Below the pieces are notes generated by a model. That model saw only the letters and a list, made by a program, of their open reading frames with translations. It did no database searches and was not told the origin of the DNA. The translations under genes were made by a program, and so were the position numbers. This document shows positions 6,025-22,067 of a DNA stretch of 22,067 nt, piece by piece; within the stretch, counting starts at the first letter, position 1, and the number at the start of each line of letters is the position of its first letter. Source of the DNA: a virus; IMG/VR virus record IMGVR_UViG_3300021335_000104, positions 1 through 22,067 of that record, one strand, 5' to 3'.

Positions 6025-6036
6025 CAACGCACAAAT
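6025..6036 (-). promoter_or_regulatory. Candidate late promoter/regulatory motif, copy 3 (before fibre gene)
   Basis: Minus-strand sequence ATTTGTGCGTTG, identical to the copies at 17980-17991 and 21264-21275. This copy is in the 69-base gap after the 1333-residue internal protein and ends 44 bases before the fibre ATG. It is followed by an AT-rich stretch containing TATAAT and then a purine-rich AGGAAGAAAAGGA leader. A promoter role is inference from recurrence, orientation and position. Confidence 0.5.
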
Positions 6037-6049
6037 AAACTAGTACAAA

Positions 6050-9000
6050 TTACTGCGCCCACATTCTTGTAATTGCATTCATGTCGTCTTTCCAAAACCA
6101 CATTCGAGCAAATGGTAAGTTGCGAGCAAAGTTCTTTGCACCTTCTCCATACTCACCACTTACAAACTGTGCAGCACCGCCAAGAAGATCTAAAGATATA
6201 GAGGCTCCAGCGCCAGCCATATTAGCAGTTGCATCCAATCCAATTATACCTGTACTTTCTTGTAGTTTCTGTTCTAAAAAACTAGGTTTTTGTGGAAACT
6301 TAGGAGCAATAAAACCATTTGTAATATTAGGTCCACCAAGAGCAAGTGATGTATGCAAGGTCTGATAAAACAAATCACTATACAAAGCAGTAATACCACT
6401 AGCATCCCATGATCGAGCAAATCTATCTTGTGCTGACATTTCATCCCAAGCAAACTCTGCACCAGATATTGAATATCTCATTTGCGTTGATAAATAGCCA
6501 AGACCAAGCATTGTTGTCATGCCTAACGCTCTATTCTTTAACTGACCATGAGCCATAGCACCAACCATTTTGTTTACATTAGCTAATGTGTAGCTATAAA
6601 ACTGAAATGGCAAAGCTAGGAACCCATTTTCTATTCTTGAATAACCCTTAAACATCTTATCTTCTGTGTAACCAAAACGCTTTGCAATATGATGCGGAAC
6701 AAATACAACACCATCGTTTATTATTGGTCTATCTGCTGGAGTTGCTGCAAGAATAGTATTTAATATTCCAGAGTTTAATGCAGATCTAAATGTATCAACA
6801 ACATCTTCTGCATCTTTTTCTGCATTCCTCATTTTTTTGTCTGCTGCAAGCTCAATGCCAAACTTTTTTTCGTTCTTCATATAAGCAAACGCTAGATCAT
6901 CAATTCTTTTTTCATAGTTAGGAAGTCTTTCACCTTCATTCATTTTAAATTTAGTATGGTGAAGTTCATGCAAAGTAACAAAACGAACATAATCATCAAA
7001 TGATTTTAACTCACTAGCTTTTTCTATTTTTACTAAAGCGTGATAATATTGTGTTTCAGATATAACACCTTCAGCTAATGCTTGAACAAGATTTGCTTTT
7101 CTTTCTTCTTTTGCTACTTTTCCTTTTTGCTCAAAAGCATCATAGTATGATTTCATATTTCTGCGATTTAAATAAATTTGATGAGTGCCATCAGAAAGCT
7201 CTACAGCAATACCCATTATGCTATTTGACTTACCTAGATCTTTCCAAACCGCATCAACTTCTTTTTGATTAGTAACAATTCTATCTACGTCAAACTCATT
7301 TTTAAAACGATTAAGAAGTTCTCTTTCATTCATTTTAAATATTGGTTTATCAGAAATCTTATAAGTTTTTCTAACTTCAGCAGTTACTTTTTTAAGATCA
7401 AGCTTACCCCATTGTTCTGTATTAGCTAAATACAAACCATTATTTGTTCTTTCCCAAGAAGACTCAGAAATTTGTTTTGCTTTCTTTTCATCAATTCCAT
7501 ATCGAGCAAGCCACTGTTTATCAAAAGCAGTTGCTTTTTTTTCGGTAAGTTTTATTGACCTATCTATAATTGTATGCGCTCGAGCAATACCATCAAGCAT
7601 TTTACTTAACTGTGTTAATGGGCCAAGACCATTTAATGTATAAAAAGCGTTTCTAGCTTTATTCCAAAACTCATTTGCATCAACATTATTAGCCATATCG
7701 TCAACTAATCGAGCAAACGCACTACCTTTTAAAATATCAATAGCTTCACCGCTAAGACGAACATCCTTTGAAGCCATCTTTAAAGTTTCTCTATCAAGCA
7801 AAGAAGAAATAGTTTTGATCATTGTTTGACCATCATGCTCCATAAGAACACGACCAAACTCAGGAACAGCAGCAATCCAACCAGAACCCATATAGTTAGT
7901 AGCAGCCGCTTCTTTCATAATGTAAGCAGTTCTTTGATTTAATGCAGATGGGTTTCTAAGAACAGCACCAGAAATACGATCATACATAAGATTAAAGTCT
8001 CTCATGTGTTTATTTATTTCTGTATCTGATAAGCCTCTTTTTATTGCATCCCTTCTAAGATGAAAGTTTACATCATCTAATTCCTGACCGTTAAATAGTT
8101 TTTTAAATTCTATTCTTGGAGCAACCCTAGCTGTATAAGTTTTCATTATAGCAATAGGATCTTGCATAATAAAATCCCAAACTAATTCATTTGGAATATC
8201 TAACTTGCGATGTCTAAAATGCTTAGATCTACCATATCCATAAGCAATACTTGAGTCACTAGTTGGATCTGAATCATTAAGAATATTATCAACAGTTTGT
8301 TTTGCTCTTTGCCTAATATCATCTGCATCAGGACTAAACTTTCTCTGCACCCACTTACCATTTTCAAAACGCCAAACAGTAGGATTGTTAGTGTACCATC
8401 TTGCAATAATACTTTCTAACTCATTGCGTCTATTTTTAACTACGGTAACATCCCAAAATCTAGGAAGAAAATTATCAGTAAAAGTTTGTTCCGTATCGCT
8501 AAAGTTTTTTAACTCTTGCTCTGCTATTTCTTTTCTATTTTTTAAACGACCTGTGTATTCTATTAGCTCCTGTCTTAATTTAGGATTGCTAGAAGCTCTA
8601 AGTATTTGGTCTTCAAGATCAGGAATAGTTCTATTAAAATAATTTATTGAATCTTGAATTGATTTTTTAGTTCCTATTAAACCAACGCTTTTTAGTTCGC
8701 CTTCTGCTTTTTTAAAAAAGCTATCAATAACACCAATAGCTTGTTTTTCAATATCACTTAGTTCTTCTTCTTTAAGAGTTCTTTTTCTATTAATACCTCG
8801 AAGCCAAGAGCCATAACTATCATCTCTTCGAGTAACGGATCTGTAAGCTGTAACAACATCAATATCTAAAACAGAAGTATCCATTAAACCCATATCATCT
8901 CTAAACAATTTAATAAGATCATCATGAGCCTTTACCCAAAGGCCATTCTTAGCAGCAGCCCTTTGATGCACAGATAACGGACTAGCAAAGCCAAGAGTTG

Positions 9001-10051
9001 TTGCAATATAATTAAGGCCAGAGTCACCGCCAAGTTTAACCATTGCCTGTTTCATAGCACCAGTAGCAGTTTCTGATTGAATAACTCTTTTAAATGGAGT
9101 GCTTACAAATTTATAAAAAGCACTGTCGGTAAACCTATTGTTAGCAATAGACCAAAGTTTTTCTGGAGTATATCCTTCAGCTACTAACTCTCTAATACCA
9201 GCTTCTCGTCTATGAGAAGATAATGAATTTTCTACTTCTCTAAACTCAGATTCTTTACCTGTTGTTTTACCAGCTTTCATTTCTATTTCTAGCTGGTCTC
9301 TTTTTTTAGTAAGCTGTCCTATTGTTGATTTTAAGGTTTCAATCTTAATATTTTCATGTGGCCTTACAGCATTAGAAAGATCTGACAAATCGTCAGCACT
9401 TAACTCAGAAGCGTGTTCAATCATTCGAACAGATCTAGCAAAGTCTGTTAAATCTTCTTGAGCTTTTCTTAGTGATTTAGCTCTAGCCGTAAGAGGAATA
9501 GATATTGCGCCACCAAACGCTGCGCCAAATAAAGTAGCCCCCACAATATTATACATACTTTCCGCTGCTGTTTGCACAGGATCATTAGGCTGTATAAGTG
9601 TAGCTTCTACGCCAGCTTGTATCATTCCAACGCCAGCACCAACTCTTAATGCACTTCTACCAATACCAACACTAGGGCCACCTAAAGGTAATGCTACTAA
9701 ATTAAGAGGATCAAATAAACCAGCGCCAAGTAAAGCAGTGAAAGAAGAGTCAGCTAATACTTGCCTTCTTGATATTGATTCATCAATCCCTCTTTTAAGA
9801 AATGACATATGCTGAGAATTTGTTGCATGACGTAAATGCATAGCAAACAAACCGTGACTGCCCAAATCTTCAAAAGGATTATAGCCCTGTTCTCTTTCAT
9901 TACCAAATTGATTATGCGCTCTAATAGATTCTATAATAGGATCATAAGTATAACCTAATGATGCTTTTAATGTTTGACCAAATGTAGGTTTAACAAACTC
10001 TCTTCTTGGGGAAAAACCACTAAAATCAACTGTAAGAGGATTAGTTACCAT
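6050..10051 (-). CDS. Internal (ejected) virion protein, gp16 position, with zinc-metallopeptidase motif
   Basis: A 1333-residue protein, close to T7 gp16 (1318), last of the three internal protein genes and directly before the fibre gene. The ATG at 10051 overlaps the previous gene by 11 bases. Residues 103-187 form a long hydrophobic Gly/Ala-rich stretch that could insert into membrane, and about 236-285 are coiled coil. I see no lytic transglycosylase motif in the N-terminus, unlike T7 gp16. Near the C-terminus, VTLHELHHTKF gives HELHH at 1028-1032, followed by YEKRIDDLAFAYM with Glu1047. This resembles an HExxH + E metallopeptidase of the ImmA/IrrE or minigluzincin type. A second amphipathic segment (about 1150-1215, FQFYSYTLANVNKMVGAMAHG) precedes the end. 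In T7-like phages this class is ejected into the cell envelope to build the DNA channel. Peptidase activity is inference. Confidence 0.82.
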   Translation of the reverse strand: MVTNPLTVDFSGFSPRREFVKPTFGQTLKASLGYTYDPIIESIRAHNQFGNEREQGYNPFEDLGSHGLFAMHLRHATNSQHMSFLKRGIDESISRRQVLADSSFTALLGAGLFDPLNLVALPLGGPSVGIGRSALRVGAGVGMIQAGVEATLIQPNDPVQTAAESMYNIVGATLFGAAFGGAISIPLTARAKSLRKAQEDLTDFARSVRMIEHASELSADDLSDLSNAVRPHENIKIETLKSTIGQLTKKRDQLEIEMKAGKTTGKESEFREVENSLSSHRREAGIRELVAEGYTPEKLWSIANNRFTDSAFYKFVSTPFKRVIQSETATGAMKQAMVKLGGDSGLNYIATTLGFASPLSVHQRAAAKNGLWVKAHDDLIKLFRDDMGLMDTSVLDIDVVTAYRSVTRRDDSYGSWLRGINRKRTLKEEELSDIEKQAIGVIDSFFKKAEGELKSVGLIGTKKSIQDSINYFNRTIPDLEDQILRASSNPKLRQELIEYTGRLKNRKEIAEQELKNFSDTEQTFTDNFLPRFWDVTVVKNRRNELESIIARWYTNNPTVWRFENGKWVQRKFSPDADDIRQRAKQTVDNILNDSDPTSDSSIAYGYGRSKHFRHRKLDIPNELVWDFIMQDPIAIMKTYTARVAPRIEFKKLFNGQELDDVNFHLRRDAIKRGLSDTEINKHMRDFNLMYDRISGAVLRNPSALNQRTAYIMKEAAATNYMGSGWIAAVPEFGRVLMEHDGQTMIKTISSLLDRETLKMASKDVRLSGEAIDILKGSAFARLVDDMANNVDANEFWNKARNAFYTLNGLGPLTQLSKMLDGIARAHTIIDRSIKLTEKKATAFDKQWLARYGIDEKKAKQISESSWERTNNGLYLANTEQWGKLDLKKVTAEVRKTYKISDKPIFKMNERELLNRFKNEFDVDRIVTNQKEVDAVWKDLGKSNSIMGIAVELSDGTHQIYLNRRNMKSYYDAFEQKGKVAKEERKANLVQALAEGVISETQYYHALVKIEKASELKSFDDYVRFVTLHELHHTKFKMNEGERLPNYEKRIDDLAFAYMKNEKKFGIELAADKKMRNAEKDAEDVVDTFRSALNSGILNTILAATPADRPIINDGVVFVPHHIAKRFGYTEDKMFKGYSRIENGFLALPFQFYSYTLANVNKMVGAMAHGQLKNRALGMTTMLGLGYLSTQMRYSISGAEFAWDEMSAQDRFARSWDASGITALYSDLFYQTLHTSLALGGPNITNGFIAPKFPQKPSFLEQKLQESTGIIGLDATANMAGAGASISLDLLGGAAQFVSGEYGEGAKNFARNLPFARMWFWKDDMNAITRMWAQ

Positions 10052-13000
10052 CTGTAGGATCTTTTACATTATTAATAAAACTAAGAGTTTCATTGATAGC
10101 TATACCTAGATTAGTAATTTCTGGGACATCTAAAGCATCAGTTTTTAAATCTGTAATTTCTTTTATTCTTCCTTTTATTTTATAGAGTACCTCAGCCATT
10201 TGAGCCTCACTAGTAAAAGATTTATTATTAAAGTAAAGCTTATCATCATCATCAAAGTCTTGAAGAAGATCAGGGTTGCTTTGCTCAAGTTTTGCAAAAA
10301 CATCAACAATAGAATTACCAAACTTGTTAATTTGAATTTGTCTTTGTGGTGAACCAGCAGGAAATTTATCTGAGATTAAATCAATAGTTTCAGTTTTTTG
10401 AGCTTCTGATATAGCTTCTGTTGTTAAAGCTAACTCCTGTTTTCTAACTAATTCTAAAAATGGCTGCTCTCTTGTTCCAAGATAAATAGCTGTTGGAACT
10501 TTATTCCCCTCTCCATCTTGAACAAACATTTGATAAGCTTCATCATCTTTGTTTACAACACTATAAACCTGACCTTTAGTTTGCGTGTCTTTTCCAAGAG
10601 GTCTTAAATAAAACTCTTCATTCTTCCAGTCAATTTTATTAACAGTTTTAAACTCACCACCAAACATATCAAACCCTATACCTTCAGCTTCTGGCTCTCC
10701 AAACTCATTATACTCAATAGCATTAGCAGCAAGCTCATTTCGAATATAACTAACAAACAAATCTCTATTTCCTTGAGTAGTTAGATCAAGAGAGTGTAAA
10801 GTTTTTTCAGTAAGAACTTCTTTTACAAGATCATCTTTTTTTAATCTAGCATCAAAGAAATTTGTAAGAGCATTTTCAGCTTTAAAACTAATATTTTCTG
10901 GATCAATTTTACTTTGAGCATAATGAGATCTAATAACAGATGATGCCATTATAAGAAGGTCACGATCAACGCCAACTTCATTACTAAAATTTTCTAAAAC
11001 ATACTCTTCTATGCTATTTTTATTTAGCTTGCTTAATAGCTCTTTTTCAAATGCTGGCTCATTTGATATGGCAGATATTTGTTTCATTTTATTTGAAAGA
11101 GCAGCATCTGTTTCTTCAATACTCATTGCTGGTAATCTTCTGTATTCAGCTAAAAGAAGATCTAAAGTAGCAGCAGTATCTGGATCTAGTATTTTATCAA
11201 GACCAGCATTATTAAAAATCTGACCTTGTTTTAAATTAATCTTATTTTTTACTGCATCGTATATATTAAGAACACGACTAGGACTAAAGTTTCCAGTTAC
11301 AAATCCACCTTGATTAGCTAAGCCATCAAAAACAGCAAGAACATCTGTGGGCAAAACACTAGATTGTCTAAGCATAACAAGAAGCTTTTGTTCTTCTTCA
11401 CCATTAATATCAAAGTTTGAATTAATAATAAAATCTCTTAAATCATTAGCTCCTAACTTTACAGCTACATCACTAAAAATATCATTTGCTAAATCACGAT
11501 TCTCTTTAGTATTATCATATGGACCACTTAGTATATCTACAAAAAACTTCTTTCTTGCGGCTACTTCTTTTTCATAAGTTAAAGCATCTGATGTTCTGCT
11601 AGCAAATGTAGATGCCTCAACCCTAGCAGCATTATCTCCAAGTAATATTCTAGCTTCATCTATAGCTTTCTTTTCACTATCAGTTAAAGTGTAAGCTTCT
11701 TTATAACTGTCTCTTTCAACACCATTTATTGCATAGTGATCAATAGAAGCTAACTGAACTTCTGAATTTATATTATTGTAAACACCAGAAAGTTTTGACT
11801 TACCAAATCTAAAATCAAAATTATCTTGCAATGAAGATCTCTGAGTAACATCTAGTTCTGTTTTTTTAATACTATTTTGTACTTTTATTCTTTCCTCTTC
11901 ATTAGAAAAATCTAAAGTTTTAATTTGTTTACTAATATCAATTGAGTTTTGAAGTTCTCTTTTTGATTGAAAGAAGTTCTGTTCGTCTTTAAAAGAAGTT
12001 GCTTTGTCTGAAAGCTTTCCTAAAAATCCAAACTGAGGTAGCCCTTGATCAAGCCTTACAAACTGTTGAGCATATTGCGCTAACTTAGGATTGTTTCTTT
12101 CCAAAAGATCTAAAGCTTTTTCATTAGTTGGATCTGTTATATATGATTGCAATCTATTAAGATCATCTAAACTATTAGCATGATTAGATACTATTGCATT
12201 TCCTAAACTATCAGCAAAGTTTTCTGCTCTAACATTAAACCTATTTATTTGAGCATCAAAAAGCTCAGCATTAAAACCCTCATTAAGCTCATTTATTGCA
12301 GTATTGTTTGTTGCTTCATTATCTTGAAATAATTTTCCTATAGCTTCAGAAACACTTGCAGAACTACCATTTGCCCCATCTCTTGATTTTTGAACTATTT
12401 CTGAATTATTTAATTGTTGTTGCTGTAAATAAAGTGTTTGTAATGTACCTTCAAACACCTCTCTATTATCAGCAGCTTTTATTAAAGGTAATGCAAACTC
12501 TTTTATAGTTGCGGAAATGGTAGCATCATCACTAGCGTTTTCTAATAGCTGCCTTACATTCTCAAACTTTTCACCAGATATGTATGATGGATTATTAGTT
12601 GTTATAGCAACATTAAGGAATTGAAGATCCTTTCTAGTTAAATCTGTATATTTAAAAAAGAACTCTAATGTACCTTTTGCTTTAGCTTGCTCTCTCTCAA
12701 TGCTTCTACCTAATCGCTCACCGTCTAATATAAATCCAGCAGCTACATCAATATCATTTTTTGTTTGAATTTCTTCTTCAATTTTTGTTGCAAGGTCTAC
12801 ATCGCCAACTCCAAGAGCATTTTGAATACCTAAAGCGGCTTGTTGGTTTTGAAATAAATTATGAATAGACATATCTTTATCATGCCTATTCTGAGCTTCA
12901 GCAACTAATCTACGATAACCGTCACTAGCAAGTGATTTTCCACGCTGATCAATAAACCTTTTGAATACAGAACTGCCTTCAACATTTATCATTTCAGCAG

Positions 13001-13400
13001 TGTAATCACTTAATGCTTTTTTATAACCTTCTGGACTTCTTCTAAATTTATTTGCAAATTCTTTAGCTTTATCAGTAAGCTCTAATTCTATTTCGGTTTC
13101 AAACCTATTAAGAAGTGCTTGCTCTCTTGCCTTTGATGCAATTCGCCCAAGACTTCTAGGTGCTTCAAAAACAGTAGGAAGGCCATCTTCTCCAAGAGTT
13201 GTTATTTCAGATGAAGAGTATTGCTCAACAGATTTAATTCCTCTTTCTCTAGCATCTTCAGCAGCACGTTTATAAAACTGTGCGTTTAAAGCATTAGCCC
13301 CTTCAGCAACAGCCTCACCCATTATAACACCAGCCCTCGATGATCGAGCAACGCCAATAGGCCCAACTTTAAATTGTCTTGTTTCTTTTTTAACAGCCAT
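10041..13400 (-). CDS. Internal (ejected) virion protein, gp15 position
   Basis: A 1119-residue protein between the gp14-like and gp16-position genes. The ATG at 13400 is 8 bases after the previous stop with a weak AGG upstream. The sequence is almost entirely predicted helix, rich in Lys, Glu, Asn and Leu, with no signal peptide, no long membrane segment and no catalytic motif that I recognise. The N-terminus (KVGPIGVARSSRAG, then ALNAQFYKRAAEDARERG) resembles the start of other large phage internal proteins. It is much longer than T7 gp15 (747), so part may be lineage-specific. By position and composition it should form, with its neighbours, the internal core that is ejected to make a trans-envelope channel. 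That role is inferred from context, not from a conserved domain seen here. Confidence 0.75.
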   Translation of the reverse strand: MAVKKETRQFKVGPIGVARSSRAGVIMGEAVAEGANALNAQFYKRAAEDARERGIKSVEQYSSSEITTLGEDGLPTVFEAPRSLGRIASKAREQALLNRFETEIELELTDKAKEFANKFRRSPEGYKKALSDYTAEMINVEGSSVFKRFIDQRGKSLASDGYRRLVAEAQNRHDKDMSIHNLFQNQQAALGIQNALGVGDVDLATKIEEEIQTKNDIDVAAGFILDGERLGRSIEREQAKAKGTLEFFFKYTDLTRKDLQFLNVAITTNNPSYISGEKFENVRQLLENASDDATISATIKEFALPLIKAADNREVFEGTLQTLYLQQQQLNNSEIVQKSRDGANGSSASVSEAIGKLFQDNEATNNTAINELNEGFNAELFDAQINRFNVRAENFADSLGNAIVSNHANSLDDLNRLQSYITDPTNEKALDLLERNNPKLAQYAQQFVRLDQGLPQFGFLGKLSDKATSFKDEQNFFQSKRELQNSIDISKQIKTLDFSNEEERIKVQNSIKKTELDVTQRSSLQDNFDFRFGKSKLSGVYNNINSEVQLASIDHYAINGVERDSYKEAYTLTDSEKKAIDEARILLGDNAARVEASTFASRTSDALTYEKEVAARKKFFVDILSGPYDNTKENRDLANDIFSDVAVKLGANDLRDFIINSNFDINGEEEQKLLVMLRQSSVLPTDVLAVFDGLANQGGFVTGNFSPSRVLNIYDAVKNKINLKQGQIFNNAGLDKILDPDTAATLDLLLAEYRRLPAMSIEETDAALSNKMKQISAISNEPAFEKELLSKLNKNSIEEYVLENFSNEVGVDRDLLIMASSVIRSHYAQSKIDPENISFKAENALTNFFDARLKKDDLVKEVLTEKTLHSLDLTTQGNRDLFVSYIRNELAANAIEYNEFGEPEAEGIGFDMFGGEFKTVNKIDWKNEEFYLRPLGKDTQTKGQVYSVVNKDDEAYQMFVQDGEGNKVPTAIYLGTREQPFLELVRKQELALTTEAISEAQKTETIDLISDKFPAGSPQRQIQINKFGNSIVDVFAKLEQSNPDLLQDFDDDDKLYFNNKSFTSEAQMAEVLYKIKGRIKEITDLKTDALDVPEITNLGIAINETLSFINNVKDPTDGN

Positions 13401-13408
13401 TGTTTTAC

Positions 13409-13843: not shown

Positions 13844-16146
13844 TAAATAATTACCTCCGTAATAAATCCATTAACTTGCATAGATAAGGGATCATTCTGT
13901 TCTATTGTTACTTGTGGATCTCTACTGTATCCAAGCAAGCGCACCTCTTCTTTACCAGTAACTCTAACACTTCCTATAGGTACTGATTTAGTATTTACCT
14001 TTATAGATCTGGTATCTTTCATATCTACAACAACATTTGTAATGCCTCGAAGAGATCCTGTTAATGGGCCAGCAGCACCAGAAGCATCTATTGGATTAGA
14101 TATTATTTTAGAATCAAACTTCTTTCCAATATAAACATCATCATAACATCCAACACCTATACCTGTTAATTCTAAAAAATCAGGAAAATTAAGCTTACCA
14201 TTTGCTAATGTAAACTCACCGAGATAATCTAACTTGCCTGCTCCACCTACAGAACTTGTATTACTTTGCTCACCTATAACATCAAGAACATCACCATTTG
14301 CATAAAGACTAGTGCCAAGAGTAATCTCAACTTTTGTTGGATTAAGTGCTGAGTCTACAGCAAAGTTTACTTTTGTATAAGAATCTAAGCCAACATCAAA
14401 ACCATATTCTTCAGTTCTAAATTCACAAAGAACTAGATTATTTTTAAAATCATAAAGATTAACAAACAATCTATCATCAATAGCAACACAAGAATCAAAT
14501 CTACCATTGGTAGTAAATGAAGTCCAAGATGCTCTTTTCTCTGCTCTGTTAGATGTAAATACAGCAGCATTACCATCTTCCATAACCATCATTGCATAAG
14601 AGTCTGCTTGTTTAAAACCACTATGAGCGACAGCAATCCATTGAGGTTGATCAATTAAATGAGAAGCAATTGTTGATATTGCAGTAGACGCATAAGCATC
14701 TTCAGCATCTGTAAATAAATACTCTCTAATTATTCTACCACTTGCTTGAGCAAATATAGTTGCACCATCTATTAATGCTGGTTGAGCAAATGAAGATCCA
14801 TAAGGAGTTTGCTCACGGATCTGAGCGTTGGTCGGTGTAATACCCTGATTAAGAAAGGTAGGAACATAAAGCTCACCAGTACCAGCAAACACTTGAAGGT
14901 CACGACTAGATACTAAATGACGTATTTCATGTACATCACCAGTTGCAGCAGTTAATTGAATAGCTTCATTATCTTGTCCAGTACCAACATCAAAGTTAAA
15001 GTACTCACCTATTTGACTCATAAAAATAGTATCTGGCTCTGCAATAGTTCCAGCAAATACTAATCTGTTTTCATGAAATGCTACGGCTGCTGGATAACCT
15101 CTTTTAGCTGACCAAGCTTGTTCATCAAAGTCTGTTGTTGGCGCATGAGTTGTTACAAACCCATTTCCACCACCATCTTCAGAAGATGTTGCAGTACCAT
15201 CTGCTATAATTTCATAGCGATTTTCATCAAGAACAGCTTGTATTGCTCTTGTTCCATTTAATTGAGTTCCTGTTATACCACCAACAGCATCCATATCGGA
15301 AAAAACAAGTGAGTCACCAACGTTATGACCATGATTAATTTGAGTAACTTCTACTCTAGTGCTTCCATTTCTTGTTCTTATTGGATTTGCAATGCTGAGA
15401 TTAAGTTTTAATGAATCTAAAATATTGGCAGTTGCCGAAGTTGTAGACTGAACACTTGTTATTTGTATTTCATTGCCACCATATCTTAAAATAACGCCAA
15501 CGTGCAAACCTGTTGTGTCAAAGTAAGCAGAGCTTGTTTGAATATTTATTCCATTTCCTGTTGTGTTATTTGGATTTAAAGTAACACCTACACCATGAAA
15601 CTTAGAGTATGGTTGATAAGTTTTCTTACCATCTGCTCGATCATCAAATGTATAAGTGCTAACATTAAATGCAGTAAGACTTGTTCTTGTTAATACTCTA
15701 GGCGCAAACAATGGATGACAGATAAACATAACATCGCCCATTTGTGCAGTAGTAATTTGATTTAAGTAAAGTCTATTAAATGGAAGTGTTGCACTACTAG
15801 CATCAGCAGTTAAAGTTGCAACTAATGTCACTGTATCAGCATCAACGACTCTAAAGCATCTTACTTTTTCATGCTCAATAGAAATAATGTATTGTTCATT
15901 ATTATCAAAAACAAATGGAAACAAACGAGATTGATATTTCTGAGAAGATGAAGAACTATAATCAATACCGTAATCATAATAGCGTTTTGTACCTTGACGT
16001 TTCCTTGCACTACCTTCGGCAGTAACAATCATGTTCTGAACTTTTTGTGCTGAGCTTGTGTAGATAGCTGTATCAGTTCTCATAATTAGAGAATCGCTAA
16101 CCTCACCAAACTGAAAACTGTTTTGTGGAACGCGAATTTTTTGCAC
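13843..16146 (-). CDS. Tail tubular protein B (T7 gp12-like nozzle)
   Basis: A 767-residue protein beginning at GTG; the upstream stop and this start share one base (TAGTG), and AAGG lies about nine bases upstream. The N-terminus (VPQNSFQFGEVSDSLIMRTD, then KVQNMIVTAEGSARKRQGTK) is typical of the gp12 family, as is FHENRLVFAGTIAEPDTIFM ... GEYFNF in the middle. The C-terminus has beta-strand sequence ending DPLSMQVNGFITEVII. Length is close to T7 gp12 (794). Six copies of this family form the tail nozzle below the gatekeeper ring. It follows the gp11-like gene as in T7, and no enzymatic motif is visible. Confidence 0.9.
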   Translation of the reverse strand: MQKIRVPQNSFQFGEVSDSLIMRTDTAIYTSSAQKVQNMIVTAEGSARKRQGTKRYYDYGIDYSSSSSQKYQSRLFPFVFDNNEQYIISIEHEKVRCFRVVDADTVTLVATLTADASSATLPFNRLYLNQITTAQMGDVMFICHPLFAPRVLTRTSLTAFNVSTYTFDDRADGKKTYQPYSKFHGVGVTLNPNNTTGNGINIQTSSAYFDTTGLHVGVILRYGGNEIQITSVQSTTSATANILDSLKLNLSIANPIRTRNGSTRVEVTQINHGHNVGDSLVFSDMDAVGGITGTQLNGTRAIQAVLDENRYEIIADGTATSSEDGGGNGFVTTHAPTTDFDEQAWSAKRGYPAAVAFHENRLVFAGTIAEPDTIFMSQIGEYFNFDVGTGQDNEAIQLTAATGDVHEIRHLVSSRDLQVFAGTGELYVPTFLNQGITPTNAQIREQTPYGSSFAQPALIDGATIFAQASGRIIREYLFTDAEDAYASTAISTIASHLIDQPQWIAVAHSGFKQADSYAMMVMEDGNAAVFTSNRAEKRASWTSFTTNGRFDSCVAIDDRLFVNLYDFKNNLVLCEFRTEEYGFDVGLDSYTKVNFAVDSALNPTKVEITLGTSLYANGDVLDVIGEQSNTSSVGGAGKLDYLGEFTLANGKLNFPDFLELTGIGVGCYDDVYIGKKFDSKIISNPIDASGAAGPLTGSLRGITNVVVDMKDTRSIKVNTKSVPIGSVRVTGKEEVRLLGYSRDPQVTIEQNDPLSMQVNGFITEVII

Positions 16147-16730
16147 TAGCTAAGCCTTTCAGTAACAAACCTTTTTGTATTAAGCTTCTTAGTTGTTTGA
16201 GCTTGAGAGTCTAACCTTCGAGCTTTTATTAACTGAACATTTGCTTGCTGATCCATAGCAGCAGATAAAGAAGCATCCCTTGCTAATGAAACCGCAAACA
16301 CAGAAGCCACTGAAAATTGAACGCCAAGCGTAAAATAAGGTGCCCAACTAGATTCATTGGCTCGATAAATATAATCTGCAATCACTTCATCAGTAGCGTT
16401 TGCATTATTATAAACTTTATCTTCATATATATTATATTCGATTGGAAGATCCTGAACGGTAATAGCATTAATCATTAGTGAATCTGCTGGTAATTGATAG
16501 GTAGCATCCCATCTTCCTATTGGCGCTTCAGAAACTTTGTTAAGTTGAAATTGTTTAGTGGCAAAACGCCAACGACTGCTTGTTAAAGCAGCCCTAACAA
16601 TATCTTCATATATTGCATCAGCTATGTCAGACTCCGTAGTTCCATCTGTAAAGGATTGAATAGGACTACCGCCAATTAACATTGATGCTCGAGAGCAAAT
16701 TTTTATTGCTGTGTTTGCAAAATCAGGCAT
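16146..16730 (-). CDS. Tail tubular protein A (T7 gp11-like adaptor)
   Basis: A 194-residue protein, nearly the length of T7 gp11 (196). The family pattern is clear: a helical N-terminus (TAIKICSRASMLIGGSPIQS, DGTTESDIADAIYEDIVRAA), then SRWRFATKQFQLNK, a central strand region with TYQLPADSLMINAI, then the second helical half with SWAPYFTLGVQFSVASVFAV. These rings connect portal to nozzle. The ATG at 16730 has no Shine-Dalgarno: the eight bases before it are AACTTTCT, and before those is a GC hairpin. Its translation may thus depend on readthrough from upstream ribosomes or on local structure (inference). Confidence 0.9.
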   Translation of the reverse strand: MPDFANTAIKICSRASMLIGGSPIQSFTDGTTESDIADAIYEDIVRAALTSSRWRFATKQFQLNKVSEAPIGRWDATYQLPADSLMINAITVQDLPIEYNIYEDKVYNNANATDEVIADYIYRANESSWAPYFTLGVQFSVASVFAVSLARDASLSAAMDQQANVQLIKARRLDSQAQTTKKLNTKRFVTERLS

Positions 16731-16738
16731 AGAAAGTT

Positions 16739-16754
16739 GGGGGCCGAAGCCCCC
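16739..16754 (-). terminator. Stable GC hairpin with UUCG tetraloop after the capsid/decoration genes
   Basis: On the transcribed strand the sequence is GGGGGC-TTCG-GCCCCC: a perfect 6-bp GC stem closed by a C(UUCG)G loop, one of the most stable RNA hairpins known. It starts 5 bases after the stop codon at 16760 and is followed by AACTTTCT and the next ATG. There is no good U-run, so it may be a weak terminator, an RNA processing or stability element, or a translation barrier. T7 has its Tphi terminator at the matching place, between capsid and gp11. Confidence 0.65.
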
Positions 16755-16759
16755 ACCCC

Positions 16760-17023
16760 TTAGTCAGAGTCTGTTTCTGCTACTGCCGTACCATCAGATA
16801 CGTCAACAACAGAGCCAGTATTAGATAACACAGTTACAAAACTTGTTGTTGGAGCATTAGTATCATGCACCATAATCAAGTCACGAACAGCAAGCATATT
16901 AGCTGAATCGTTAAAGTAACCAGCAGTATTTACTGTAGCAATCGCATCAGTAGTTGTGTATCTCCACACACTACCATTCGAATCACCACCAATACGAGTT
17001 AGTCCAGTTGCACTATAAGCCAT
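16760..17023 (-). CDS. Small head protein, probable capsid decoration
   Basis: An 87-residue protein directly after the capsid gene; its AGGAGG ribosome binding site overlaps the capsid stop codon. The sequence has a Gly/Ser/Thr-rich N-terminus, then TTTDAIATVNTAGYFNDSANMLAVRDLIMVHDTN, then short strands ending in an acidic tail (VAETDSD). The GYFND...L.V.DLI pattern is one I know from small proteins encoded beside phage capsid genes, predicted to be beta-rich. A head decoration or stabilising protein is the likeliest role, inferred from position and size. High expression is expected because it is coupled to the capsid gene and followed by the stable hairpin. Confidence 0.75.
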   Translation of the reverse strand: MAYSATGLTRIGGDSNGSVWRYTTTDAIATVNTAGYFNDSANMLAVRDLIMVHDTNAPTTSFVTVLSNTGSVVDVSDGTAVAETDSD

Positions 17024-17035
17024 TTTCTAACCCTC

Positions 17036-17845
17036 CTAGTTATTGTCTAATAGTTCATAGATACCATTGTCATCAATAACAACAGCGCCCATAGACATCA
17101 TAGATGTTGCAAGGTGAGATACTTTCTCAGCAACGTAGTTGACTTCAGTTTGAACATCAGAGTTGATACCCAAGCCAACAGAAGTTGTGTGATAGCACAT
17201 ACTCTTACCAGCAGCCACAGCAGACGTTGAGAAGATCTTAAAGCCTAAGAACTCTTTCATTGTCATGCCACCAGCATAAGGTAAGTTTTGATCACCAACA
17301 AAGTCAGATGATGCAAACTCTGTAATTAAGAACAGATCAGCAAAACCTTTTGGGTGCATAGCGATATAACGCTGTCCATCCTCAGGAAGATTAGCTGTTC
17401 CAAATGTTTCAAATACAGATAGTAGGTCTGCTTTTTCAACAGCAGAACTTGTATCGTGGATTTGAGTTGAGTTAGCACCAGCATCCATAGCTGTAATTAG
17501 TAAGCTATCAGTCTTACGACCTAGAGCAGCAGCAGCAGATTGGGCTACAGCTTGACGCTCATTGATGTTGGTTTTGAGTTCATCTAATTTATCGATGTAC
17601 TCAGCAGCGTAGAAGTCAGCCATAGTTGCTTCTACATTGGTATGTGCAAGTTCCATAGGAGTTACATTACCATTACGAGATTTAGTAGTTGCTTCCGCAG
17701 TACCAATCTTCTGAAATCTAACAGTCGATCCAGTTACATTAGCAGTCCGCACTGTGTTCCGTAGCTTAGAACCCATACGCTGATATGCCATGTGAACTTC
17801 TGTTTCGAACTGTTTGATAAAGGCTGTGTCTATTGTATTAGCCAT
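17036..17845 (-). CDS. Major capsid protein
   Basis: A 269-residue protein with an AAGGA site nine bases before the ATG. Sequence landmarks fit a compact HK97-fold capsid protein: a helical N-terminus, a loop region with GSTVRFQKIGTAEATTKSRNG (39-59) that could be the E-loop, a long helix around NINERQAVAQSAAAALGRKTDSLLITAMD (93-121) as spine helix, then QRYIAMHPKGFADLFL (158-173) and KEFLGFKIFSTSAV (197-210) in the A and P domains. It is shorter than T7 gp10A and no decoration domain is fused to it. It comes after scaffold and before a small head protein. Similar capsid proteins are widespread in marine podoviruses. A 12-base late motif lies 134 bases upstream of its ATG. Confidence 0.88.
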   Translation of the reverse strand: MANTIDTAFIKQFETEVHMAYQRMGSKLRNTVRTANVTGSTVRFQKIGTAEATTKSRNGNVTPMELAHTNVEATMADFYAAEYIDKLDELKTNINERQAVAQSAAAALGRKTDSLLITAMDAGANSTQIHDTSSAVEKADLLSVFETFGTANLPEDGQRYIAMHPKGFADLFLITEFASSDFVGDQNLPYAGGMTMKEFLGFKIFSTSAVAAGKSMCYHTTSVGLGINSDVQTEVNYVAEKVSHLATSMMSMGAVVIDDNGIYELLDNN

Positions 17846-17924
17846 TTATTAGTTCCTTATTGAAGTTACGGTTACTAACAGGTGTCCGCTTTATCACATC
17901 AACAAGGGTATCCTATCGGGCCTC
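17846..17924 (-). promoter_or_regulatory. Capsid gene leader (79-base gap)
   Basis: This is the longest non-coding gap in the window. It contains the capsid ribosome binding site (AAGGA) and, further upstream, an AAGAGGCCCGATAGGATACC stretch that is more GC-rich than its surroundings. I find no convincing hairpin. A late transcript starting near the 12-base motif at 17980-17991 would carry this leader. Confidence 0.4.
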
Positions 17925-18518
17925 TTAGTGTATTACGGGCTGCAATGTGCCATCATAAACATCTTTTTGATTTGGATTGCAACGCACAAATTCAACATAT
18001 TCAACTTCATTGTTAGATGTTACACCAACAGCCTCGAATCCTAACCATGATGCCCAATCTAAAATAAACTCATATTCTTTAAGTATTGTCATAGATAAGC
18101 CATCGTGAAACTCATCAAAATACTTAACAAACATTACAGATCCTCTAGCCATAGCTTTAAAGTTTTCTTTTATTTTATTAGAAAACATAGCAAACATTTG
18201 AGGCCATTCCTGATCTTCAGCAAACCAAAGACCCCCAATCATAATAAAACTCTCATTATTTTTTCTGCATAGATAGCACTCAGAACTTTCATGCATATCA
18301 ATAAGAGCTTTTCTAATATCAGTATATCCTAATAAAATTAGCTCTTTTACATTCTCTTTGCTTAAACCCTCAATGACTTCATCAATATGATCTAAGGTAA
18401 AAGGGGTAAGATAATACTCACCCCTCTGTAAAATCTTAGCTTCTGTAGATTCTCTTGAATCCTTCGGCAACTTGCTTGTGTATGTTTGGGTCACGATCTT
18501 TCCAATACTTTGGATCAT
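17925..18518 (-). CDS. T7 gp13-like / GNAT-fold protein encoded between scaffold and capsid
   Basis: Up to 197 residues from the ATG at 18518, which overlaps the scaffold gene by 83 bases. Homology-like sequence begins only near residue 30 (YYLTPFTLDHIDEVIEGLSK, then ELILLGYTDIRKALIDM), just where the scaffold gene stops, so the true start may be later at a non-ATG codon. Middle and end (CYLCRKNNESFIMIGGLWF, FAMFSNKIKENF, FIL-DWASWLGFEAVG) resemble the acetyltransferase-like fold of T7 gp13 and related phage proteins: an N-terminal (I/L)xPxTxxDI segment, a central strand pair and a WLGFE motif. T7 gp13 is an assembly factor for the internal core; acetylation by this protein is not shown. The position before the capsid gene is unlike T7, where gp13 follows gp12. 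Confidence 0.72.
   Translation of the reverse strand: MIQSIGKIVTQTYTSKLPKDSRESTEAKILQRGEYYLTPFTLDHIDEVIEGLSKENVKELILLGYTDIRKALIDMHESSECYLCRKNNESFIMIGGLWFAEDQEWPQMFAMFSNKIKENFKAMARGSVMFVKYFDEFHDGLSMTILKEYEFILDWASWLGFEAVGVTSNNEVEYVEFVRCNPNQKDVYDGTLQPVIH
17980..17991 (-). promoter_or_regulatory. Candidate late promoter/regulatory motif, copy 2 (before capsid gene)
   Basis: ATTTGTGCGTTG on the minus strand, inside the last codons of the gp13-like gene (coding Phe-Val-Arg) and 134 bases upstream of the capsid ATG. It is identical to the copies at 6025-6036 and 21264-21275. Because this copy is coding, protein constraint could contribute to its sequence, but GTG-CGT is not the codon choice expected in AT-rich DNA. 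Confidence 0.45.
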
Positions 18519-19173
18519 CCATCATCTTTCTTAGATCAGCTTCATTAACCTCAGATGCTGACGCTGTATCACCAGCAAATGACCCATCCTTCATACCAGC
18601 CATTATAGTTTCAAGAGCAATAATACCCTCATGACTTTCACACATTTTTTCTATAGCTGGTAATGCTGACTCAGGAAAAAACTTGTTAGCCCATAATGAT
18701 GCCGCATCTATTCTCGCATCAGCATTATCGCCAAGTTTTGATATCTCTTCTTCATAGCTAGGTTGAGTTCCAAGAACAGACTCAGAGTATATCTTAATAC
18801 CTTCTTCAAACTCTTCCTGAGAAAATCCATTGTTAAAAGAATGTTCTGACCACCACTTTAACAAATCATTATCAACAGCTTCTTCTTCATTAATAATATC
18901 TGGAAGCTGATAATCCCCAGAAGTCTCTGGTCTATCTGAGAAAGCCTCTGATTGTATTTCTTCTATGATTTGATTTCGTAAGTCTTCATCTTTAGCACCA
19001 AGCTTAGATTCAAGTTCTTTATAAGCTTTGGCTAGATCCTCACCAGTTTTGTACTTCTCTGGCAACCATTCAGGTTTTTCAGATGTTTGTTCTACTTTTT
19101 CAACATCTTCTTGAGTTACAAAGTCACGACCATCTTCGGCTGCTACTTCAACTGCTGCATCTTCTTCACTCAT
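18436..19173 (-). CDS. Capsid assembly scaffold protein (gp9-like)
   Basis: A 245-residue, strongly acidic protein. Start at an ATGA overlap with the previous gene, with AGGAG upstream. The N-terminus is disordered and Glu/Asp-rich, followed by PEWLPEKYKTGEDLAKAYKE, a segment typical of T7-type scaffold proteins. The middle is Glu-rich helix. The C-terminus (EADLRKMMDDPKYWKDRDPN, then IHKQVAEGFKRIYRS) is a basic helical hairpin-like end, the part that binds coat protein in scaffolds. It acts inside the procapsid and leaves on maturation. Length is somewhat below T7 gp9 (307). Gene order portal, small protein, scaffold, then capsid supports the call. Confidence 0.85.
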   Translation of the reverse strand: MSEEDAAVEVAAEDGRDFVTQEDVEKVEQTSEKPEWLPEKYKTGEDLAKAYKELESKLGAKDEDLRNQIIEEIQSEAFSDRPETSGDYQLPDIINEEEAVDNDLLKWWSEHSFNNGFSQEEFEEGIKIYSESVLGTQPSYEEEISKLGDNADARIDAASLWANKFFPESALPAIEKMCESHEGIIALETIMAGMKDGSFAGDTASASEVNEADLRKMMDDPKYWKDRDPNIHKQVAEGFKRIYRS

Positions 19174-19427
19174 TGTTTACTCCTATTTGCGTGTGCAATG
19201 CGTTGCTCGATCAAACCTACAAGGTATCTCTGCCCCTCGATGTGCCGAAGTTCTTCTGTAGAAACGTTAGGCCCATTAACCATTTCAATAGTAATAGATC
19301 TAAAGTATTTCAAAACCTCTTGCCCTGTTGGGGTAGAAAATATCTGAGCAATATTTTTGCTAATCTCAACATCACGTTCAGATTTACGATGAATACCATC
19401 GATCCCAATATTAACCTTGCTGTTCAA
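19170..19427 (-). CDS. Small Bbp19-like phage protein (TTG start)
   Basis: An 85-residue protein between portal and scaffold. The only good start in frame is TTG at 19427, overlapping the portal gene by 17 bases, with GGA about ten bases upstream. Its core (IAQIFSTPTGQEVLKYFRSI, then STEELRHIEGQRYLVGLIEQ) matches the layout of the Bbp19 domain family: F.TP.GQ.VL.....followed by REGQR.LV..I. Such proteins are small helical proteins encoded near portal genes in many podoviruses; their molecular function is not known to me. It could be a head assembly factor. It stops in an ATGA overlap with the scaffold start, so the two are translationally coupled. Confidence 0.7.
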   Translation of the reverse strand: MNSKVNIGIDGIHRKSERDVEISKNIAQIFSTPTGQEVLKYFRSITIEMVNGPNVSTEELRHIEGQRYLVGLIEQRIAHANRSKQ

Positions 19428-20952
19428 CTGGCATCATTCCCTGCTGCATTGCCTGTTGTTGCGCTAATTGCTGCGCGGCTTCCGCAATTTGTTTACGCTG
19501 TTCTTCATCTCGAATCAAGCTTTCTGGAACACCAAACTTCTTAGCTAGGTAAATAGCAGTCTCTTCGCCATCAATTAAAAGCTGCAACATCTCTGGCCCA
19601 AAGCCATTACCAATCATCTCAAGAAAGCGTGACACTACAGAAATATCCTGATTAGCTTGCGCTTGTGCTAATGGAGAAACAGATCTAACTTTAATTTCTC
19701 TGCCATTAACTGTTGGTATATCAATACGCCCTTGCTTCTTAAGAATATAAACCACACGTTGAAGAAGCGGCTGAACAAGCTCTGCTTGTAATCTTCCAAA
19801 TGATGCACCCATTCTTCTAGATAAATCAGCCATACGTTCAGCTATTTCTGTAGCTGTCGCTGGAGTTCTGTCAGGATTACCTAGCATATCATTATACAAA
19901 GCTTTCTTAATATTTAATCTAAGATCGCCTAAAACAAGTTGAGCAACATCGAAACGACCAGCAGCTTGTATAGGTTGTAATCCAGCAGATCCCATAGCTT
20001 TAGGAATTATAGTTCCTGGAACGAGATTGATTGTATCAGGGTTTATTACCCCATCATCTTCCATTTGATAAATACCAGAGATCGACATCTGTGCGTTCTC
20101 AAGTATTAATTGAATAGTAAGATTGGTTGTTTTTATAGAACTTAACGCATTAATTAACGGCCCTCGACCATAAACCTCACCAGCGCACTTAGACCAGCGA
20201 AAACAAATGAATGGATTAGATCCAACACCACTCATTTCTTTGGAGTGTAATATTGTTTCAGTAGTTAGGCATATTGCGTAATGATAATACGCCTCGACAT
20301 TTGGTTGGGTATAGTTTCTGCATACAAGCTCAAGAACTGTAGTTTCTCTATTCGAACCCATCTGTGAGGTAACTTTGGAATCAAATGTAGATTTAGGAAA
20401 CATTAAAGGTAAATGATCAAACTTAACTTTCTTTCTTTCTCGATAAACGTGATCAATCCTATCATCAGGGCCAGTATCTAAAACAACATGAGGAAGTGGT
20501 ATTGCAGAGAAGTTAATTGGATTTAGAGCGTCACCTTCTTCAACGCATAGAACGCCAGTGCCAACGGCTAAGTCCATAAAAGATTCATGAACCTCTTGGC
20601 TAAAATTAGAGTTCTGCAAAACCTCAAACACATAGTTTGTTACTTCATCTAATTGATTATCAACTTCTTCTCGTTCTTGCGGATCTACTTCACTGCCAGA
20701 AACAAAGTCTGCCCATCGAGCAAAGTTTGGAACAATACCTGACTGCAATCTACTTGCAAACTCTTGAGTACCTACTACAGCAGTCTCGTCAAATATCTTT
20801 TCATCTCTACGCTGACCATGTTCTTCATAGTAAAAAGATTCTCGTTGAGGCAAAGCATACTCATAGCATTCCTCAAAAAGCGAAACCCATTGCTCACGAA
20901 AAGATTTTGCCTTTCGATACTTCTCTATAAAATGCTTTGCTATATTATCCAT
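19411..20952 (-). CDS. Portal / head-tail connector protein (T7 gp8-like)
   Basis: A 513-residue protein (T7 gp8 is 536). The family N-terminus is clear: KYRKAKSFREQWVSLFEECY, EYALPQR, FDETAVVGTQEFASRLQSGI and PNFARWADF. Later features are SANCTIONED connector sequence such as LINALSSIKTTNLTIQLILE (wing-crown transition), GTIIPKAMGSAGLQPI, and the stem-like LNIKKALYNDMLGNPDRTPA TATEIAERMADLSRRMGASF stretch. The last 35 residues are Gln/Ala-rich and probably disordered. Twelve copies form the ring at the unique capsid vertex through which DNA is packaged. The ATG overlaps the previous stop by one base (TAATG) with little Shine-Dalgarno, suggesting coupled translation. Confidence 0.92.
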   Translation of the reverse strand: MDNIAKHFIEKYRKAKSFREQWVSLFEECYEYALPQRESFYYEEHGQRRDEKIFDETAVVGTQEFASRLQSGIVPNFARWADFVSGSEVDPQEREEVDNQLDEVTNYVFEVLQNSNFSQEVHESFMDLAVGTGVLCVEEGDALNPINFSAIPLPHVVLDTGPDDRIDHVYRERKKVKFDHLPLMFPKSTFDSKVTSQMGSNRETTVLELVCRNYTQPNVEAYYHYAICLTTETILHSKEMSGVGSNPFICFRWSKCAGEVYGRGPLINALSSIKTTNLTIQLILENAQMSISGIYQMEDDGVINPDTINLVPGTIIPKAMGSAGLQPIQAAGRFDVAQLVLGDLRLNIKKALYNDMLGNPDRTPATATEIAERMADLSRRMGASFGRLQAELVQPLLQRVVYILKKQGRIDIPTVNGREIKVRSVSPLAQAQANQDISVVSRFLEMIGNGFGPEMLQLLIDGEETAIYLAKKFGVPESLIRDEEQRKQIAEAAQQLAQQQAMQQGMMPVEQQG

Positions 20953-21218
20953 TATCTACCAAACCGACCTAAGTATCCAGAAGCACCGCCAGCAGCACCC
21001 ATTTGTTGAGTGGCTCTAAACAAAGAACGTCTAGCTGTTCCACCTCTAGCACCAGCATCTGCAACACTTGATTCTAATGCAGCAGATATATCTTTACGCT
21101 TTTGTTTAGCCCTACGATCAACTTCTTTTCTTTCAGCATCTTCTGCTTCTATTCTATCTTCAGCAGCAGCCGTTTCCTCTGCTTGAGTTGGGCCACCGCC
21201 TCCACCACCAAAACACAT
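20952..21218 (-). CDS. Small Gly/Ala-rich protein, possibly T7 gp7.3-like
   Basis: An 88-residue protein between terminase and portal, with a strong AAGGAG before the ATG. It begins MCFGGGGGGPTQAEE, continues with a highly charged helix (AAAEDRIEAEDAERKEVDRR) and ends in a Gly/Ala/Arg-rich tail (ARGGTARRSLFRATQQMGAAGGA). The GG..(G/A)RRSL motif and the Gly-rich end recall T7 gp7.3, a small virion protein encoded just before the portal gene and needed for host adsorption. Similar MCFGGG proteins occur at this place in marine podoviruses. I make the gp7.3 link at low confidence because such sequence is low-complexity. No small terminase features are seen. Confidence 0.68.
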   Translation of the reverse strand: MCFGGGGGGPTQAEETAAAEDRIEAEDAERKEVDRRAKQKRKDISAALESSVADAGARGGTARRSLFRATQQMGAAGGASGYLGRFGR

Positions 21219-21262
21219 AATAAATCTCCTTTTCTCTTCCTAGTCACAAAGTTAAAATAAAA

Positions 21263-22067
21263 TCAACGCACAAATTGAAAAGCTCTCTTTTTCTTAGGTC
21301 TGGAAAACAAATCAAAACTTCTTTTAGCAACGACAGGTTGTAGAGGTTTTTGGTTATTCATTAAAGCTCTACCTTCACCAGCACCGAGAAAGAGATACTG
21401 AGCAGCATCATGAACGTGAGAAAACATATTCTTATCTGGTTTATCAGCATATCTCTCACCAGATACTTCCATTCTTTTATAAGCGTAGCCACCCTCAAAA
21501 CCTTTGATAAGTTGAGGGCAACGCCTGTCTATAAGTAGTGCTGGCTTACCTTCAACCATCTTCGTTAATTGGGAGGAAACCGATTCTAATCGAAGATCAA
21601 CAGAGTTGGAGGGCGCAGGGTATGCCCTCAAGCCAGCACCGCGCAAAATATGAAAGGGAGTTGATTCATCTGTTTGCGCTCTAAAGTCTCCAGCAGGATC
21701 TCCATAGATAATAACTTCGGAAGCTGCGGAGAATCTTGTTGCGAGTTCTTGTCTTAATACTTCTGCAAAACGGACAATCCCCATATCTATCGCAACAATT
21801 TCTGATTGAATAAACCAACGTCCTCTTACTTTCTGTCCAAGAACTGCGGCTGGTGTTAACCCAAAGTCTATACCAACATACACAGGCGCATTTGCAGCAA
21901 TAGGTATTTCTTCTTTTGCTATGTGTACTTCGCCAGCAAACATTGGGTAAACAGGTTTTCCGTCTTGGATATGACCCAAGCGATTCATAACATAGACATC
22001 AATCCAGCTTTTAGTCTTACCGCGAATAAGGTTTGAATAATAATTGCCTATTATGTTTTTTTGGTTT
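21263..22067 (-). CDS. Terminase large subunit, C-terminal nuclease part (5' end outside window)
   Basis: The frame stays open to the window edge, so the visible 267 residues are the 3' part of the gene; the ATG at 21988 is internal. The first visible residues (NYYSNLIRGKTKSWIDVYV, then GKPVYPMFAGEVHIA) are the linker that joins ATPase and nuclease domains in this family. The RNase H-like nuclease has its three acidic positions: YVGIDFGLTP (Asp codon 21866-21868), IIYGDPAGDFR (Asp codon 21698-21700) and SHVHDAAQYL (Asp codon 21407-21409). The protein packages DNA through the portal and cuts concatemers. The ATPase Walker motifs lie outside. Terminase is upstream of the portal here, whereas in T7 it is at the end of the late region. 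Confidence 0.93.
   Translation of the reverse strand, partial: NQKNIIGNYYSNLIRGKTKSWIDVYVMNRLGHIQDGKPVYPMFAGEVHIAKEEIPIAANAPVYVGIDFGLTPAAVLGQKVRGRWFIQSEIVAIDMGIVRFAEVLRQELATRFSAASEVIIYGDPAGDFRAQTDESTPFHILRGAGLRAYPAPSNSVDLRLESVSSQLTKMVEGKPALLIDRRCPQLIKGFEGGYAYKRMEVSGERYADKPDKNMFSHVHDAAQYLFLGAGEGRALMNNQKPLQPVVAKRSFDLFSRPKKKRAFQFVR
21264..21275 (-). promoter_or_regulatory. Candidate late promoter/regulatory motif, copy 1 (before portal block)
   Basis: ATTTGTGCGTTG on the minus strand, identical to the copies at 6025-6036 and 17980-17991. It covers the last sense codons of terminase and all but the final base of the stop codon, and ends 45 bases before the ATG at 21218, almost the same distance as copy 3 (44). 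As in copy 3 it is followed by AT-rich DNA, then an AGGAAGAGAAAAGGA leader. Confidence 0.5.

Follow-up and report, generated by a model that had tools for sequence, protein, structure and literature searches.

The stretch of viral DNA analyzed here, 22,067 nucleotides (nt) of IMG/VR record IMGVR_UViG_3300021335_000104 and hereafter called the window, is the late half of a podovirus-like genome, with all of its genes on the minus strand. These comprise terL (cut by the window end), portal, scaffold, capsid and tail genes, genes for two proteins of 1119 and 1333 residues of unknown function, and fibre genes; the names g197 and g1333 were coined here from protein length. ARAGORN found no tRNA in the window, and Rfam gave no match to it at E values up to 1. 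The nearest isolate in the phage collection is Hodr (Pelagibacter phage EXVC031P, OQ414635), whose portal is 62% identical. An earlier note, made from the window sequence, had pointed to a 12-base motif, ATTTGTGCGTTG, repeated before the portal, capsid and fibre blocks, and had proposed it as a phage late promoter. Our comparison with relatives supports that proposal. The motif is a copy of a box that is very probably the phage's own switch for its virion genes: it occupies the same four places (P1 to P4) in relatives, and its presence tracks that of one small DNA-binding gene. The window holds P2, P3 and P4 (Table 1); P1, the fourth copy, is known from relatives and falls past the window end.

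The repeat is exact in its three copies, all on the minus strand with none on the plus strand. Distances of 45 and 44 nt from the P2 and P4 copies to the next ATG, together with purine leaders, are present in the sequence as had been described, and the translated proteins confirm that the P2 and P3 copies are coding, both reading Phe-Val-Arg. The note had further considered three exact copies improbable by chance, which holds for one given 12-mer and fails for any 12-mer: at least three copies of some 12-mer on one strand were found in 6 of 60 dinucleotide shuffles of the window (mean 0.1), and another 12-mer, ATACAAGTTCTG, likewise has three exact minus-strand copies (2799-2810, 14250-14261 and 17443-17454). 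All three copies of the latter lie inside coding frames. With up to two mismatches allowed, the window contains 6 matches to ATTTGTGCGTTG against 2.16 expected, a number that 2 of 100 shuffles reach. By itself, the triple repeat is only mildly surprising and is weak evidence.

Relatives were gathered as the best 80 of at least 600 loci found with the capsid protein and the best 80 of at least 600 found with the portal protein. Among the 162 sequences counted (1.75 Mb, including the window, three window pieces (L001-L003), Hodr and loci that overlap on a shared contig), ATTTGTGCGTTG occurs in late-gene sense 76 times exactly and 109 times with one mismatch, and in antisense 0 and 6 times, that is, almost never; the 12-mer read backwards gave 1 and 4 one-mismatch matches. 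After L001-L003 and identical contexts had been dropped, here and in all later counts, 141 distinct sites were left. Flanking genes assigned 137 of these to the neighborhood of P1-P4, and the other 4 lie inside the portal gene. P1 is situated between terS and terL and precedes the C-terminal part of the latter by 2.1-4.3 kb. P2 lies at the stop of terL; P3 and P4 precede the starts of the capsid and fibre genes, by 143-158 nt (about 146) and by about 55 nt, respectively. In G035 (35,432 bases), the closest of the long relatives, all four places are occupied by a single exact copy, and a one-mismatch word lies inside the portal gene. The conserved core of the box is TTTGTGC(G/A)TTG. Its shorter form TTGTGCRTTG was found 58 times in sense and once in antisense in 14 near-complete box-bearing genomes (31-35 kb, 3 to 5 sense copies each), versus once in each direction in 8 genomes without the box. 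The divergent G036 retains only TGTGCGTTG at P2 and TGTGCGTAG at P4. The same places are thus held in relatives, near-complete ones having four, and because place and strand are both conserved, this comparison makes the repeat non-random. Of the checks suggested in the note, the two run on sequence, conservation of place in relatives and rarity on the other strand, came out in favor of its proposal. We conclude that the 12-mer is in all likelihood the specific element shared by a family of late promoters.

The P3 copy allowed us to separate constraint on DNA from constraint on protein. This copy reads Phe-Val-Arg-Cys in g197. Codons were counted in 36 of 109 genes (<85% identity) minus 3 that are cut before the site and minus G001, which has Asn-Arg-Cys, giving 32 non-redundant genes with the peptide. 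Arg is encoded by CGT in 32/32, and Val by GTG in 28/32 (GTA in 3, GTT in 1), the 28 GTG genes being by definition those with the exact box. Elsewhere in these 28 genes, CGT accounts for 16% of 212 Arg codons and GTG for 15% of 334 Val codons. Moreover, g197 was not detected in four loci (L031, L032, L033 and L079), where the scaffold match comes within only 15 nt of the box and the box still stands 146 nt before the capsid gene; G004 and G020 are whole records of loci that lack g197 yet have the P3 box. Since the codons are frozen and the box persists without g197, P3 is, on this sequence evidence, conserved at the level of DNA and not of protein.

We then analyzed the DNA that follows the box for a TG with a TA within 0-2 nt, the TA being 19-25 nt past the box, in representatives (<80% identity) that match the core. 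Such a TG-extended, -10-like element is present in 20/23 P1, 19/32 P2 and 17/28 P3 representatives (shuffle means 2.1, 4.5 and 2.6; maxima 7, 10 and 8), and its distance from the box varies over the full 19-25 nt. The P2 sites converge on TRTGNNTANGAA, in which the second T and the G of TRTG reach 93% and 96% and several neighbors vary (73 sequences, redundancy kept). Except at P3, the -10 hexamers match TATAAT poorly. One class of P1 sites reads CGTTGACA, placing TTGACA across the end of the box; P2-P4 retain only the TTG of a -35 element. Scans of the window with the sigma70 consensus gave no excess (33 versus 35.3 expected; 14 versus 29.4 expected). The earlier observation that the copies share no -35/-10 pair does not extend to the group, where P1, P2 and P3 have the second element, though P4 lacks it. 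Measured from the second element, the box would lie at about -44 to -34, and the architecture looks like that of a sigma70-type promoter in which a specific box extends into the -35. It is likely that these promoters are used by the host RNA polymerase. At 15/28 P1 sites (L006, L017, L093, L109, G035, G037 and others) an ATG follows 33-34 nt past the box, so near the presumed start that the transcript could be almost leaderless. P1 of L031, L079, L141, L155 and G036 is followed, near the terminase genes, by two tracts of 6-8 G about 15-20 nt apart, and inverted repeats were seen by eye 3′ of some P2 and P4 sites.

Not all relatives have the box. By the pattern used, it is missing at P2 and P3 of G001, G002, G003, G006, G015, G016, G019, G021, G029, G030, G031, G048 and Hodr, and also at P4 wherever P4 was found; G006 has ATTTGAGCGTTG at P3. 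Junctions in these records are short, 2-29 nt at P2 (12 of 13 measured) and 0-22 nt at P4 (7 measured), against 44-78 nt at P2 (16 of 19 measured properly) and 41-103 nt at P4 (17 measured) in box-bearing records, such that the intergenic spacers at P2 and P4 are present only where the box is. In this tally, G017 was scored as lacking the P2 box owing to a one-mismatch form there, and for G036 the P2 gap of 1 nt is artificial, the pattern having matched the box itself. On a tree of portal and terL (32 records), the state of the box changes at least four times, including between the sisters G017 (with) and G006 (without). Hodr, similar to the window in its structural genes, differs in having no box in late-gene sense and in its terL and fibre junctions of 1-2 nt.

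Gene content was compared with the presence of the box in genomes of 26-35 kb, 15 of them with the box and 8 without; the shorter G013, G032, G034, G015, G019, G021, G030 and G048 were left out, as was G020. Out of 38 protein families (clusters present in at least 5 box-bearing genomes), one tracked the box: a family of XRE helix-turn-helix (HTH) proteins, found in 15/15 box-bearing genomes and 0/7 box-less relatives, Hodr being the eighth. An earlier round of the test had found it in 14/16 box-bearing genomes, and the two misses, G013 and G032, are shorter records. The gene, which encodes 76-95 residues, lies on the early strand, outside the window. G006 and G016 have both neighbors of the XRE gene, an HTH-like gene on one side and a conserved gene on the other, but not the XRE gene itself. 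The HTH-like neighbor (G035:8664-8948 and its counterparts in relatives, three box-less genomes among them) encodes a second HTH-like protein with no Pfam match. In the XRE family itself, matches span one in-frame TAG each in G053, G054, G055 and G056, and G052 (43,851 bases) has two copies of the gene 29.7 kb apart and four boxes.

By domain and fold, the candidate reader belongs to the XRE / lambda-repressor-like HTH proteins. Its match to Pfam HTH_3 is marginal (23.2 bits versus a cut-off of 23); the best PHROG is 4836, ‘CII-like regulator’ (residues 20-77, E 1.8e-7), and the nearest solved chain by profile is 2ef8, titled C.EcoT38IS (E 3.3e-5). An AlphaFold2 model has four helices, with a predicted local distance difference test score of 83 and a predicted template modeling score of 0.64; Foldseek matched it to XRE proteins at E 0.003 and above, with none at E 0.001 or better. 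Among 14 of the proteins identity falls to 45%, yet the stretch from Ile44 to Phe64 has 15 invariant columns out of 21, which a constant DNA target would lead one to expect.

The association was also tested in reverse, starting from the HTH protein alone. From the best 80 of at least 600 loci that it retrieved, 28 had at least 4.6 kb upstream, and 26 of these contained the box (at most one mismatch) at the place of P1, on the opposite strand and 2-5.6 kb upstream. Sixty scrambled words gave a mean of 1.4. One of the two misses, L294, is due to the locus edge (in its record, G053, a copy lies 33 bases outside); the other is L317. Nine longer records reached in this way (30-44 kb) hold 4, 4, 4, 4, 4, 4, 5, 3 and 4 copies of TTGTGCRTTG, on a single strand in each. 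Five further HTH loci are on bacterial genome contigs in metagenome bins, which do not show the host. Locus L353 has an exact copy on the expected strand, 4.0 kb upstream, and L356 a one-mismatch copy 5.9 kb upstream; no such copy was found upstream in L354, L355 and L357, the first two of which hold only 1.1 and 0.8 kb there.

Based on these results, we favor, as the probable explanation overall, a phage activator that recruits host RNA polymerase to late promoters. A small XRE/CII-like HTH protein, made early, would bind the box at about -44 to -34, where the last TTG overlaps the -35 hexamer, and the bound protein would recruit sigma70-type host polymerase. Activation of P1 would serve the upstream late block and terL, that of P2 the portal block, that of P3 the capsid and that of P4 the fibre. 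That the XRE protein is the reader is probable in our judgment, its binding and activation being predictions from co-occurrence. This supports one of the two readers that the earlier note had offered: the HTH gene, as a phage-encoded activator, tracks the box, and a phage RNA polymerase is not supported (see below).

Several observations weigh against this explanation. Hodr has a weak relative of the HTH protein (E 2.5e-16) and no box, and G029, scored as box-less, is 29 kb and may miss part of the early region. One scrambled word reached 18/28 in the reverse test. Many XRE operators are palindromic, and the box is not. The second element is present in only 1/10 representatives at P4, and in its strict form in just 19/32 at P2. 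Only 6 of 48 loci retrieved with the fibre protein have the box before the fibre gene, the rest being other lineages or box-less. Sigma region 4 (PF04545) exceeds the cut-off in 1 of 20 records, G059. Finally, most of our counts come from related loci and lack independence, the changes on the tree being the exception.

Of the alternatives, the one that survives best, though we consider it unlikely, is that something else reads the box: another phage regulator, for example a sigma factor or the second HTH-like protein, or a host factor on its own. All 15 of 15 box-bearing genomes do have the second HTH-like family; it is, however, also present in 3 of the 8 box-less ones (G006, G016 and G031). 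For a sigma factor there is the match in G059, against which region 2 (PF04542) was found in 0/20 records (controls 10/14); several weaker region-4 matches fall within the HTH gene itself. A host factor acting alone would leave the tracking of the box with a phage gene unexplained. We regard as improbable that the box is instead a site of antitermination or RNA processing, or a packaging or replication signal. The sense-strand bias would fit an RNA element, and in favor of such other roles one can also cite the position of P1 between terS and terL and the two G-tracts after one P1 class, but four dispersed copies each standing before a late block, the -10-like element at three of them and the spacers that occur only with the box all speak against them.

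Still less probable is a T7-like arrangement, with the box as promoter for a single-subunit RNA polymerase of the phage. The resemblance that had been drawn to T7 is one of placement only, before portal-side, capsid and fibre blocks; the P1 sites of one class end in TATAGGG, which is like a T7 start. The enzyme itself, which the note had suggested looking for, was not found: PF00940 matched 0/52 records, some of them fragments, whereas T7 scored E 9.9e-110 in the same search, and no early-strand open reading frame in 14 genomes exceeds 293 residues, the size of the largest. We therefore rejected a T7-like polymerase as reader, although a polymerase that is small and split, or too diverged for Pfam to recognize, could still fit. 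The varying spacing between box and second element, 19-25 nt, may also set the box apart from T7-type promoters, which are contiguous. Lastly, a chance or coding coincidence, for which one could cite the second triple 12-mer, the two coding copies among three and the weakness of our first statistics, has next to no probability given the conserved place and strand in relatives and the frozen codons, and was rejected.

A phage activator of host polymerase belongs to a known class of mechanism. In phage lambda, CII binds a direct repeat, TTGC-N6-TTGC, at the -35 region and drives lysogeny genes; the likeness would lie in a small phage HTH protein and a box overlapping the -35 of a host-polymerase promoter, whereas here there is one 11-bp word, TTTGTGC(G/A)TTG, before virion genes, and TTGC-N6-TTGC does not occur in it. 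The controller (C) proteins of restriction-modification systems (C.EcoT38IS, C.AhdI) are XRE proteins of about 80 residues that are among our profile and fold matches, and some activate at sites near -35. Their C boxes are paired and near-palindromic; the present case would be a phage late regulon of four sites. T4 middle promoters combine a MotA box with an extended -10 and would share with the present promoters a specific box in place of the -35, a TG-extended -10 and host polymerase, but the sequence and position of the box are different, and here the genes are late. We speculate, with about even confidence, that the system is a compact module in which a single XRE/CII-like late activator of about 80 residues acts on a single non-palindromic 11-bp box, and that the gene, the four boxes and the spacers are gained and lost together while the structural genes stay. 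If this is true, relatives without the box need some other means of expressing these late genes.

In open-licence literature on pelagiphage, Hodr and phage promoters, we found no description of the box or regulon. An account of Skadi-1 states that it encodes no RNA polymerase and names four sigma70 promoters (PMC10504331), and one of Melnitz mentions T4-like promoters (PMC9004378). Relatives are frequent in IMG/VR (at least 600 matches for each of the capsid, portal and HTH queries), while the nearest isolate found shares only 62% of the portal. The box delimits late operons, names a testable regulator and marks sites for reading metatranscriptomes, and its paired presence or absence with the gene is a natural experiment on the change of a phage late switch.

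Table 1. Boxes, second elements, genes and hairpins of the window discussed in the text.
Feature	Position	Strand	Observations
P2 box copy	21264..21275	-	exact; at 3′ end of terL, 45 nt before next gene, upstream of portal block; same place in relatives
P2 second element TGTGACTAGGAA, TG-extended, -10-like	21237..21248	-	read from sequence; TRTGNNTANGAA conserved at P2 in relatives
P3 box copy	17980..17991	-	exact; within 3′ part of gene 17925-18518, before capsid gene; in relatives; frozen codons
P3 second element TGTTTATGAT (TG plus TATGAT)	17952..17961	-	read from sequence; TG-N0-2-TA here in 17/28 P3 representatives
P4 box copy	6025..6036	-	exact; between g1333 and fibre gene; no clear second element; in relatives
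terL, C-terminal part from first ATG; frame continues towards window end	21263..21988	-	PHROG terminase large subunit, E 5.7e-11
Portal / head-tail adaptor, in block after P2	19411..20952	-	PHROG 332, E 5.3e-94
g197, gene holding P3	17925..18518	-	PHROG 308 internal virion protein, weak, E 8.7e-6
Major capsid protein, first gene after P3	17036..17845	-	PHROG 3437, E 1.2e-56
Conserved hairpin in leader of capsid gene; part of the P3 transcript if P3 is a promoter	17904..17924	-	covarying stem in relatives
GC-rich hairpin after capsid and 87-residue genes, possible terminator or 3′ end	16738..16755	-	seen in 29/31 relatives
Fibre gene, first gene after P4	5045..5980	-	PHROG 1640 and 21412 tail proteins

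Two hairpins were noticed near the capsid gene. The first lies in the 79-nt capsid leader and has a conserved CC...GGAYAM between two 4-nt arms. This pattern, chosen after looking and counted directly, is present in 54/56 non-redundant leaders, with four pairs in 46 of the 54 and three pairs in 8, in 18 combinations of arms; RNAalifold gave a weak consensus of -1.9, compared with -0.04 for 30 column shuffles (lowest -0.36). The hairpin is found in genomes with and without the box and is a possible regulatory or translational element of the capsid mRNA. The second hairpin, which is GC-rich and occurs in Hodr as well, is absent from G016 and G019. It is possibly a terminator or an mRNA 3′ end, with only a poor run of T behind it.

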